DNA of 64,000 nucleotides from Alphaproteobacteria bacterium (GTDB taxonomy: Bacteria > Pseudomonadota > Alphaproteobacteria > JANQMY01). Every line of letters begins with the position of its first letter. Position 1 is the stretch's first letter. Below the pieces are notes generated by a model that was given only the letters and a program-made list of their open reading frames with translations, had not been told where the DNA came from and made no database searches. This document shows positions 291 through 10,613 of this stretch, one piece after another. The translations under genes and the position numbers were made by a program. Location of the stretch: assembly GCA_028289425.1 (NCBI GenBank), contig JANQPL010000018.1, positions 1 through 64,000 on the forward strand, in the 5' to 3' direction.

Positions 291-2408
291 GTGGCCGAAA
301 TCTTCTTGTCTTATGCGCATGACGACCAAGAGCGGGTGCAACCGCTGGTGCGCGCATTAAAGGCCCAAGGGTTCACCTTGTGGTGGGACCGCGGCATAGA
401 AGAAGGCATCAAGGGCGGCGATGAATGGCTCAACAGCATCGAAGAAGCCCTAACGGCCGCGAAAGCTGTCATTGTCGTTTGGACACAAAATTCCAAGAAA
501 AGCCGCTTCGTCAAAGAAGAAGCCAACGAAGCCATCGCCCAAGAAAAGTGCGTCCCTCTCGTGCTGGATGCGGGGGCGGTACCGTTTGGCTTTCGCACCA
601 TACAAGCGGAGAACTTCATAGACTGGGCGGGTGACCTGGCGACAGATGCTTGGCAGCGGCTTGTGCTTCAGCTAAAGGCCCTGGTGACCCAAGAAGACGG
701 TGGCGGTGAGCCGGCTCAGCAAATGGGTGGCTGGGCCCCAGTGGGAGCGCTGGCGTTGTTGGCGCCTGCGGGCTTGGGCGGCCCGCTTAATCTTGATATT
801 GGGCCTTATGCGGGCGTGCTCGCCTTTGCCGGATTTTTCTTTTTGCTGTTCTGGGCGGCCGATGAACGCCTATCGCCCCATTTGAAAGCGATTTCCGCGC
901 GTTGGTTGTTGCCCGAACGCGATGGCGTGCGCGTGAGTGTAGCGGAAGCCTTCAATAATCTGTTCGAAGCGGTGTTCGGCCGCCGGCATCTTTCTGTGCG
1001 CTGCGTTTCAAGTTCGTTTCTTGCATCGATGTTGGCTCTTGCCGTCATCACAGGGCTTGCTTGGCTGTTAATTCCTGATTTCAAGCGGTCACTAGGCAGC
1101 TTCGGGCAATTCGCCTTGATAACGATCTTACTCACTGTCGCCACCAATCTGTTGGGGGACTATGTGTCGCTCTGGCAGACGCGCATTTTCCTTCGGTGGG
1201 CAAAGCGCTGGCCGTGGTCACTTCCATTTATTATTGTCGCCGACTATTTCCTCACTGCGTTGCTTTTTACGTTCGTTTTCCTAGGTTCGTTCTTCGCACT
1301 TCAACTCTTGTTCTCAGACTTTCTGACGTTTGCTTTCACGGAGGAAGGTTATCGCGAACTCACTTTGTTTGATTTATTTTTCACGCTTGTGCCAGAACCA
1401 ACCGACTCCTTGTCGCTACCAGCCGAACAATGGTTTGTGGTGTTTTCTATCGCGACCACCTATGTGACGTCTATTTGGTTGTGGCTGGTGGCCATTGGCG
1501 GGCCGGTCGTAAAGCTCTTCTTGGGTCGGGATGGACGCGTTTCTTTGGTGGGCAGGGCCTTAGGCGCGGAAGACCGCCCCTTTACCGCCCTTGGCATTAT
1601 CACGTCGCTGGCCATTTTGCTGATGGGCCTAACCCTAACGGCATTCAGCTCGCTTGAGGACGAGGCGCAAAAGCCCTCAGGGCCCGAGATCTTCAAAGAT
1701 TGCTCCTCTTGCCCGGAAATGGTGGTTGTGCCGGCTGGAAGCTTCACCATGGGCTCGCCCGAGGGCGAAGCGGGGCGCTATCGTAATGAAGGCCCACTCA
1801 GGCTGGTCACCATCGCTAGGCCCTTTGCTGTGGGCCGATTTGAAGTTACGTTTAGTGAATGGGATCACTGCGTGGCCGACAAGGGGTGCGAACACAGGCC
1901 ACAAGATCAACGCTGGGGCCGCGGCACAAGGCCGGTGATTGACGTTTCTTGGGACGATGCACAAGCCTATGTGGCCTGGCTTTCACTGAAAACGGGTAAA
2001 CCCTACCGTCTGCTTTCGGAAGCCGAATGGGAATATGCGGCGCGTGCCAATGCGGACCCACCGACGCCCTATTGGTTCGGCACCAGCATCACCACGGGCC
2101 AAGCAAATTTCCAGGGGGCACGCACGCGAGTGGTCGGGTCCTACCCCGCCAATGGATTTGGCCTGCATGACACCCACGGCAACGTATGGGAGTGGGTGCA
2201 AGACTGTTATGAGCCGTCCTATGCCAACAACCCAGGCGACGGGTCCGCGGTGGAGCCGGACGATCCGTCCGCTTGCTCCACCCGTGTTTTGCGGGGCGGG
2301 TCCTGGTACTTCAATCCTCAGAACCTGCGATCTGCGTTCCGCTTCAGGGGCAGGCCCGTCGGCCGAGACTACAACGTCGGGTTTCGAGTTGCGCGCGACC
2401 TGGATTAG
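291..2408 (+). CDS. TIR domain - multi-pass membrane - SUMF1-type domain protein
   Basis: This 705-residue protein starts at GTG. Residues 1-135 form a TIR domain: it opens AEIFLSYAHDD, has the WWDR strand, and carries S71-R-F73-V74-K-E76-E77, where E77 fits the catalytic glutamate of NAD-cleaving TIR domains. About seven hydrophobic segments follow (near 148-163, 172-190, 242-262, 272-289, 311-340, 382-404 and 432-453). Residues 475-703 are a SUMF1/FGE-like domain (MVVVPAGSFTMGS, WEYAAR, GNVWEWVQD, RVLRGGSW, GFRVAR). The cysteine pair of true formylglycine-generating enzymes is absent near the C terminus. CSSC at 471-474 and C527, C533, C639 and C662 suggest disulfides, so the last domain is probably periplasmic. 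The gene stands alone between repeat-rich spacers. Function is unknown; a sensor or defence role is inference. Confidence 0.85.
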   Translation: MAEIFLSYAHDDQERVQPLVRALKAQGFTLWWDRGIEEGIKGGDEWLNSIEEALTAAKAVIVVWTQNSKKSRFVKEEANEAIAQEKCVPLVLDAGAVPFGFRTIQAENFIDWAGDLATDAWQRLVLQLKALVTQEDGGGEPAQQMGGWAPVGALALLAPAGLGGPLNLDIGPYAGVLAFAGFFFLLFWAADERLSPHLKAISARWLLPERDGVRVSVAEAFNNLFEAVFGRRHLSVRCVSSSFLASMLALAVITGLAWLLIPDFKRSLGSFGQFALITILLTVATNLLGDYVSLWQTRIFLRWAKRWPWSLPFIIVADYFLTALLFTFVFLGSFFALQLLFSDFLTFAFTEEGYRELTLFDLFFTLVPEPTDSLSLPAEQWFVVFSIATTYVTSIWLWLVAIGGPVVKLFLGRDGRVSLVGRALGAEDRPFTALGIITSLAILLMGLTLTAFSSLEDEAQKPSGPEIFKDCSSCPEMVVVPAGSFTMGSPEGEAGRYRNEGPLRLVTIARPFAVGRFEVTFSEWDHCVADKGCEHRPQDQRWGRGTRPVIDVSWDDAQAYVAWLSLKTGKPYRLLSEAEWEYAARANADPPTPYWFGTSITTGQANFQGARTRVVGSYPANGFGLHDTHGNVWEWVQDCYEPSYANNPGDGSAVEPDDPSACSTRVLRGGSWYFNPQNLRSAFRFRGRPVGRDYNVGFRVARDLD

Positions 2409-2738
2409 ATTCTTGTTCGTGTTCTGACTAACTCTTCACATGTAAACTCTTTTGGGTCATTCGTGTGCGGTTGCAGCGGATGTGTGCTATTGTTTTAAGT
2501 AAGGGGAGGCTTTGGTGACCGGAGACCTCCATGGCCTCGAAGAGACCACCCATTTGTCGCCCCAAACTTGGTTTGGGCTGCCTTCGCCGAACGGTCCGTC
2601 GCCCGAAGGGCTATGGCCCGCAGGGCGGAGCTTCAGCTTCGCGCAGGCAGGGGCCAATAGCCGCAAGCGCCAATGAATCGGCCGACGGCTGTCAAAGACA
2701 CGCAATCATTCCAGAACAGGGCCGCTGCGGCGTATGGA

Positions 2739-2772
2739 TCCCAAGCTCGCAAGCTACGCTTGCGCCTTGGGA
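2739..2772. repeat. Two-step hairpin repeat
   Basis: tcccaag at 2739-2745 pairs with cttggga at 2766-2772, and inside it cgcaag at 2748-2753 pairs with cttgcg at 2759-2764 around the loop ctacg. The flanks match the hairpin at 181-208 (gatccc ... gggatgacg). No transcript role is evident. Confidence 0.65.
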
Positions 2773-2804
2773 TGACGATGAAGAGGCAGTTCACGTCAAA
2801 TTTG

Positions 2805-2955
2805 GGATGAACCCCATGCACCCATCTTTGTTGAGTGCATCACCGGCCCGCTCCCCCTCCCAACCACCCGGATACGGTACCCTAGCGGGTGGCTGGGAGG
2901 GGGCGTGGGCCGGCCAGGTGTTCAAACATCGGATGAACCCCATGCACCCATCTTT
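2805..2955. repeat. 25-base direct repeat, two copies 126 bases apart
   Basis: The 25 bases at 2805-2829, beginning ggatgaaccccatgcaccca, are repeated without change at 2931-2955. Each copy is followed within about 30-50 bases by a C-rich CCCTCCCAACC block. The unit therefore looks like a duplicated module of roughly 75 bases. Confidence 0.8.
2853..2903. repeat. 18-bp hairpin with 15-base loop
   Basis: Bases 2853-2870 pair with 2886-2903 with a single mismatch. The C-rich left arm reads ccccctcccaaccacccg and the right arm is its G-rich partner. The 15-base loop contains ggtacc. It lies between the two copies of the 25-base direct repeat. Confidence 0.8.
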
Positions 2956-2980
2956 TTGGACCGGGCTCTCCGGACATGCC

Positions 2981-3197
2981 CCCTCCCAACCTTCCCCCGT
3001 AAACGCAGGCCAATCGCATATGGGTGACCTCGCCCTTCGAGACACCGCCCGCAGGGCGGTTCCTCAGGGTGAGGTCACGAAGAGGCCCGAAGGATTTCCT
3101 CATCCTGAGGGCGAGCAAAGCGAGCGTCTCGAAGGATGGGAAATCCCAATTCGGCCATATGCGATTGCCCTGGCTTGCGGGGGGAGGTTAGGAGAGG
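2981..3197. repeat. About 215-base composite inverted-repeat element
   Basis: caatcgcatatg at 3011-3022 is perfectly complementary to catatgcgattg at 3156-3167, and the similarity continues imperfectly outward to about 2981 and 3197. Inside are a 12-bp stem (3024-3035 with 3067-3078, one G-U pair), a perfect 7-bp stem (3044-3050 with 3054-3060), and a block at 3096-3143 of the 'cctcatcctgagg...gcgagc...tctcgaaggatg' type. I recognise that last block as a common alphaproteobacterial intergenic repeat. The layout resembles a miniature inverted-repeat element, but no target-site duplication was established. Confidence 0.6.
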
Positions 3198-3236
3198 GGT
3201 GGCTCGCAACAACACCCTTGCCGGGCCGGACTCAAA

Positions 3237-9567: not shown

Positions 9568-10613
9568 GGCTGAAGCACCACCCGGCCGACAATGTTGCCG
9601 GCGCGCAAGTCATCAAGCGTTTGACCCGCCTGCGACAAGGGCCGCGTTTCGACCGGAATGGGATCGATCTTGCCAGCCTTGACCAAGTCCATCATTTCTT
9701 TTGTTTCTGCAAGCGAGCCCACATAGGAACCGCCTATTGTAATGACGCGCAGCGGGAACATGGGAATGGGCATGGAAAAGCCGCCGCCGAACAGTCCCAC
9801 CACAACCACCTTGCCGCCTTTGCGGACAGTGGCGCTTGCGAAGTTAAGTGATGCTTCGGAGCCGACAAAGTCGATGGCGCCGAAGACGCCGCCATCCGTG
9901 TCGGCCAGAATCTGTTTTACGGCCGATTGGTCCTTGCTGTTGTAGGCTTGTGCCGCCCCAGCTTTCTTAGCTGCTTCAAGCTTGCCCTCGTCGATGTCTG
10001 CGGCGAGAGGTGCGCTTGGGAACAAAGCTTTTGCGAACTGTATGCCCATCATGCCGACGCCGCCGGCGCCGACCACGAGTACTTTGTCGTTTGGCCCGGG
10101 TGTTCCCAGTTTCTTAAGCGCGCCGAAAGCCGTCAGCCCACTGCACATATAAGTAGCGGCAAGAGATTCCGACATATCGCCATAGTCGAGAAGATATTTC
10201 GCATCCGGCACCAGCACGTGATCGCTGTAGCCGCCGGCAACATTGACACCTAGACTGCGAGGTGCACGGCAATAATGTTCATCGCCGGACTGACAAACCG
10301 AACACTTGCCGCAGCCGATCCAGGGAAACGCCACACGGCGATCGCCCACCGAGACACCTTTTGCGTCCGGCCCAAGGGCGACAACCTCGCCTGCGATTTC
10401 ATGACCCATGATGTGGGGCAGCGCGTCTTTTGCGCCCAAAGGCAGCTTGTTGCCGCCGCCGAGGTCGAAGTACCCATCGTGAATGTGCACATCGCTGTGG
10501 CAAACGCCGCAAGCGGTCACCTTCAGCAATACTTCGCTGCCTTTGGGATCCGGCGTCGGTGCATCTACCTCTTGAAGGGGTTCACCTAAGGCGACGATGG
10601 CTTGGCTTTTCAT
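9564..10613 (-). CDS. Zinc-dependent alcohol dehydrogenase
   Basis: This medium-chain dehydrogenase probably oxidises alcohols or reduces aldehydes with NAD(P). The 349 residues include the catalytic zinc ligands C38 (CGVCHSD), H71 (GHE) and C157. Four cysteines for the structural zinc lie at 101, 104, 107 and 115, and the Rossmann motif GAGGVG at 182-187. The substrate cannot be told from sequence. It lies downstream of rsmA on the same strand (36-base gap) but looks functionally unrelated to the lpt operon. Confidence 0.93.
   Translation of the reverse strand: MKSQAIVALGEPLQEVDAPTPDPKGSEVLLKVTACGVCHSDVHIHDGYFDLGGGNKLPLGAKDALPHIMGHEIAGEVVALGPDAKGVSVGDRRVAFPWIGCGKCSVCQSGDEHYCRAPRSLGVNVAGGYSDHVLVPDAKYLLDYGDMSESLAATYMCSGLTAFGALKKLGTPGPNDKVLVVGAGGVGMMGIQFAKALFPSAPLAADIDEGKLEAAKKAGAAQAYNSKDQSAVKQILADTDGGVFGAIDFVGSEASLNFASATVRKGGKVVVVGLFGGGFSMPIPMFPLRVITIGGSYVGSLAETKEMMDLVKAGKIDPIPVETRPLSQAGQTLDDLRAGNIVGRVVLQP

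Follow-up and report, generated by a model that had tools for sequence, protein, structure and literature searches.

The window, by which we mean the whole stretch of 64,000 nucleotides analyzed here, covers positions 1-64000 of contig C5 in the 5.42 Mb genome of an alphaproteobacterium (G000). The contig ends where the window starts, and only 290 bp are visible upstream of the gene under study. This gene, termed the receptor gene below, is a single open reading frame encoding a TIR domain at the N-terminus, about seven membrane helices and then a domain of the FGE/SUMF1 type. The features of the locus are as follows:

291-2408, forward strand: TIR-7TM-FGE receptor gene, 705 aa, GTG start (open reading frame and Pfam domains)
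300-662, forward strand: TIR_2 domain, residues 4-124, predicted to be cytosolic (Pfam, E=1.5e-20)
519-521, forward strand: codon of E77, putative catalytic glutamate of a TIR NADase (alignment and invariance)
735-1655, forward strand: seven-helix membrane module, residues 149-455 (hydropathy, charge rule and homologues)
1710-2396, forward strand: FGE-sulfatase/SUMF1-fold domain, residues 474-702, PvdO-like and predicted to be periplasmic (Pfam, E=1.8e-53)
2307-2378, forward strand: stretch resembling a DGR variable repeat, residues 673-696, aligning gaplessly with the DGR template of genome G121

Downstream of the receptor gene lie fabD, fabG, fabF and mltG, and the interval between the receptor gene and fabD (2531-3230) looks non-coding, with short direct and inverted repeats. 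Neither a known defence gene nor a pyoverdine-type gene cluster was found in the first 12 kb of neighbours. No ThsA effector gene, as looked for in a test for Thoeris, adjoins the receptor gene, with fabD-fabG-fabF-mltG downstream and the contig end cutting the upstream side, and none of the phage or plasmid records covered 80% of the full gene. The earlier note had called the gene solitary, which is correct for the locus but not for the genome, where a second TIR-TM-FGE gene was identified along with an FGE protein lacking a TIR domain, neither of them carrying the DGR codon footprint described below:

L011:6205-7737 (contig C3 of G000): second TIR-TM-FGE gene, 510 aa, one membrane segment
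L012:4955-6436 (contig C9 of G000): FGE protein without TIR, 493 aa, one membrane segment

The TIR domain was modelled confidently by AlphaFold2 (pLDDT mostly above 90), and a profile generated from 18 TIR homologues matched AbTIR, SARM1 and tir-1, each of them annotated as an NAD hydrolase. In alignments, E77 lines up with the W..YE glutamate of AbTIR and 7uxr, and it is one of six residues that are invariant across the 18 homologues. The TIR domain with a plausible NADase glutamate proposed in the earlier note was thus borne out by Pfam, by alignment and by structure prediction. Taken together, these data make the domain a probable NADase, with E77 as its putative catalytic residue. Like the NAD hydrolases AbTIR and SARM1, the receptor has a TIR fold and the aligned glutamate; unlike them, its TIR domain is membrane-anchored and joined to an outer sensor. 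Some TIR domains serve as scaffolds.

Hydropathy analysis of the middle of the protein showed strong segments near residues 170, 243, 274, 313, 382 and 431 and one or two weaker ones, including one near 148. With seven helices assumed, lysine and arginine together total 8, 4 and 5 per inner loop vs 0, 1, 1 and 2 per outer loop, and on the basis of these charges the TIR domain is predicted to lie in the cytosol and the FGE domain in the periplasm, in agreement with the topology of about seven segments read earlier from the letters. The helical middle was modelled poorly by AlphaFold2 (pLDDT about 45-80), and a fold search with this low-confidence model, too weak a query to judge by, gave no match at E<=0.001. 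Pfam returned no match for the membrane module or for any family between TIR and FGE, and no STAND or other NTPase was found there. When 385 genomes of the class were searched, residues 131-455 matched only the congener G001, G092 from another family and, weakly, G257, where a repeat-rich region, Sel1-like on visual inspection but without a Pfam match, comes after the module. A phylum-wide profile search added free-standing modules of 296 and 315 aa in G487 and G691. Homologues of the module keep the motifs D..SL..TR and TS.W.W, and those found without TIR or FGE are:

L170, 1483-2373: free-standing relative of the seven-helix module
L192, 1474-2421: free-standing relative of the seven-helix module
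L156, 1444-3249: module relative followed by a repeat-rich region

The outer domain was modelled as confidently as the TIR domain (pLDDT mostly above 90). Its nearest solved structure is PvdO, both by sequence (E=1.1e-53) and as the best match by fold, while the fold search also retrieved TvpA (2y3c), a DGR variable protein of Treponema, at E=1.3e-13. The SUMF1-type assignment of the earlier note was therefore right as to fold, but the catalytic cysteine pair that FGE carries near the C-terminus is missing (GGSWYFNPQNLRS vs GGSYLCHDSYCNRYR, with no cysteine at those places), and this loss rules out FGE enzyme activity for the domain. PvdO functions in siderophore maturation and not in immunity. 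As an alternative, the outer domain could act as a periplasmic enzyme of the PvdO type, regulated or localized by the TIR-7TM part. The proximity to PvdO in sequence and fold is what speaks for such an enzyme; the cysteines absent in a comparison with the catalytic residues of FGE, the match to the non-enzymatic TvpA and the lack of a pyoverdine-type cluster in the first 12 kb of neighbours speak against it, and we regard it as quite improbable. Receptor residues 467-705 resemble PvdO (5hha) most closely among solved sequences and folds but, unlike PvdO, are fused to a TIR domain and a membrane module. The outer part is better described as a domain of C-type-lectin fold bearing a variable tail of the DGR type, and this reinforces the earlier suggestion of a sensor-like outer end.

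The partner domains found among 61 FGE relatives included TIR (17), caspase (14), kinase (9), nSTAND1 (8), trypsin and Hsp70, and some relatives pair FGE with peptidoglycan-binding domains. Partner-domain labels were mixed over the FGE tree, in which few branches were well supported. The TIR-nSTAND1-FGE proteins of L051 and L080 have an FGE domain of the same family as the receptor. Proteins that combine an FGS/FGE domain with a STAND NTPase and an effector (TIR, caspase or kinase) have been described (Kaur et al., eLife 2021, PMC8195603), as have DGR-diversified CLec sensors of Thiohalocapsa and relatives, among whose DGR targets some have TIR domains and some hold the CLec domain in the periplasm through membrane segments (Dore et al., PNAS 2024, PMC10907252). 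The FGE family of the receptor is that of the effector-FGS conflict proteins predicted in these two studies. As in the STAND NTPase-FGS systems, an N-terminal effector and a C-terminal FGS/FGE domain are joined in one protein, but a seven-helix membrane module replaces the central NTPase and the FGE domain is predicted to lie outside. As in the sensors of PMC10907252, a CLec/FGE domain with a variable-repeat tail is present, but neither a DGR RT nor a template was detected in G000. No closer precedent for a TIR-membrane-FGE receptor was found in the open-access literature, and the joining of TIR, via a 7TM module absent from Pfam, to a DGR-type sensor is new.

The tail of the receptor, GGSWYFNPQNLRSAFRFRGRPVGRDYNVGFR, a 24-residue variable loop, aligns without a gap to the G121 template coding GGSWNNNTDNLRSSNRNRNEPDNRNNNIGFR. 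At the 11 asparagine codons of this template (10 AAC and 1 AAT), the receptor keeps the same third base in every case, AAT included. Given the residues, the probability of such a match by chance is 7e-5 under the codon usage of the gene itself and 1.4e-3 under core-gene usage. Within the receptor gene the tail alone is so extreme (1 of 690 codon sets), and in the other genes of the window 8 of 17,233 matched sets are; the two FGE paralogues of G000 score 4/11 and 6/11. Tails of the relatives G045 and G079 also reach 11/11, and no RT was found in either. The Fisher test of template A sites is weak, as p values of 0.001-0.006 were also obtained for two Rhizobium tails whose footprints are poor and whose differences from the template likewise fall mainly at A sites. 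The codon footprint, which was seen first and tested afterwards, is graded as good but not conclusive.

The machinery that could have produced such a tail was then sought in G000, where no DGR template was found, either by an adenine-tolerant pattern or by a template-type pattern that did detect the positive control G121. No DGR RT was found, the search with DGR RT giving only a weak match to DRT2; the single RT of the genome belongs to this defence family (PADLOC E=2e-129; L010:7367-8920 on contig C4). An active DGR in G000 is ruled out within the assembly, which is what the searches cover; one might still lie in a short unassembled gap before the start of the window. An apparently complete DGR was identified in the Bradyrhizobiaceae MAG G121, at L197 (G121:C2:10500-21500), with an nSTAND1-FGE target, a template, an open reading frame resembling an accessory protein and a 370-aa RT:

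L197, 1-1803: target gene
L197, 3627-3745: template
L197, 4996-6108: RT

Target and template differ at 16 positions over 80 bp, all of them at template adenines and none elsewhere. The same genome also holds two tandem TIR-nSTAND1-FGE genes (L051). A decayed DGR is present in G034 (L132, G034:C28; 4162-6864), where an Hsp70-FGE gene whose tail resembles a variable repeat precedes a bAvd gene and a DGR RT that is truncated.

We consider it likely that the receptor tail is DGR-derived. The competing account is that the tail was never a DGR target and that its pattern reflects chance, or selection for Tyr/Phe/Asn/Asp/Gly on a binding surface together with C-rich third positions. This account draws on the 8 equally extreme codon sets elsewhere in the window, on the higher of the two conditional probabilities (that under core-gene usage), on the Rhizobium tails, on the lack of an RT or template and on the pattern having been noticed before it was tested. 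It is rendered doubtful by the singularity of the tail within its own gene, by the retention of the template AAT, by the low scores of the other two FGE genes of G000 and by the DGRs that adjoin such genes in alphaproteobacterial relatives, complete in G121 and truncated in G034. Even with such an origin of the tail, the receptor reading would not fall on that ground alone. If the tail is DGR-derived, the DGR responsible most likely acted in an ancestor or donor, and the tail would now be fixed, given that G000 yielded neither a DGR RT nor a template. It seems to be common in these bacteria for the sensor to be kept after the diversifier is lost.

In the sole congener available, G001, a receptor homologue occupies the same fabD-fabG-fabF-mltG site, the gene order being P450-like gene, TIR-7TM-linker-FGE, fabD, fabG, fabF, mltG. 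This argues against the simple accessory insertion envisaged at first. The earlier note had also stated that homologues at one syntenic site in all close relatives, with no link to defence loci, would tell against a defence role; this pattern was found in part, in one congener and with no defence gene in the first 12 kb. FabD, FabG and FabF share 93-94% identity between the window and G001, whereas the receptors share only 52% in TIR, 41% in 7TM and 57% in the FGE core. The homologues of G001 and G092 are 72% identical in TIR and 65% in 7TM, and each contains a linker, absent from the window copy, that separates 7TM from FGE, but FabF of G092 is only 75% identical to that of the window, so that FabF relationships run opposite to those of TIR-7TM. 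Since the TIR-7TM part of G001 is nearer to G092 while FabF indicates the reverse, lateral exchange, or allele replacement at the fabD site, would be the simplest reading of these sequences. The G092 receptor (L128, 1-3420; 1139 aa) carries a PA-IL-like lectin domain after FGE, which is consistent with an outer binding end.

A plain housekeeping role is disfavoured by this divergence, far faster than that of the neighbours, and by the conflict with FabF relationships. The same two observations bear on the possibility that the protein is a receptor for envelope stress or cell-surface signalling and plays no part in defence, in which case FGE would sense peptidoglycan, glycans or a neighbour's surface and TIR would act as a scaffold or give a mild signal. 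Such a receptor would agree with a congener copy at the same site among core genes, with a neighbourhood devoid of defence genes and with the peptidoglycan-binding domains joined to FGE in some relatives; besides the rapid divergence and conflicting relationships, the invariance of E77 and the swapping in of other conflict effectors among relatives count against it, and we think it rather unlikely.

The receptor is real and unusual, and on balance we favour, with modest confidence, its full reading as a one-polypeptide transmembrane conflict (immune-type) receptor. This reading is supported by the domain order, the predicted topology, the conserved E77, the lost FGE active site and the tail footprint, as well as by the caspase, kinase, nSTAND1, trypsin and Hsp70 fusions of relatives, fast divergence and lateral exchange. 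Counting against it are the absence of an adjoining defence gene and the congener copy at the same site, as would be expected of a core gene, along with the low-confidence 7TM model, the existence of scaffold TIRs, PvdO as nearest solved domain and the availability of a single congener.

In the mechanism proposed, for which the domain facts were computed and each dynamic step is drawn from general knowledge of TIR proteins, the periplasmic FGE/C-type-lectin-fold domain would bind a ligand, perhaps an invader or envelope molecule, via its variable C-terminal face. The seven-helix module would pass the signal across the inner membrane, probably through a changed assembly state, and the cytosolic TIR domains would gather and cleave NAD+ via E77, which could stall or kill the cell and might thereby confer an antiphage benefit. 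More tentatively, the protein may be likened to a Toll receptor with an outer DGR-born domain, a new seven-helix signalling module and an inner NADase TIR, existing as fixed alleles after loss of the diversifier and subject to lateral exchange.

Intracellular sensing is assumed for many bacterial TIR systems. If the proposed reading is true, a single polypeptide with its sensor outside and its TIR inside would offer outside-in immune signalling in a simple form that can be tested, and its polytopic module might represent a new kind of signal transducer. The occurrence of variable-repeat-like tails where no DGR is present would point to sensors born by hypermutation being retained as fixed receptors. 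Single-domain FGE genes were also observed in Falsiroseomonas stagni, where three lie in tandem (L048, 7806-11225) and the tails at 9834 and 11112 score 10/11 on the codon footprint.
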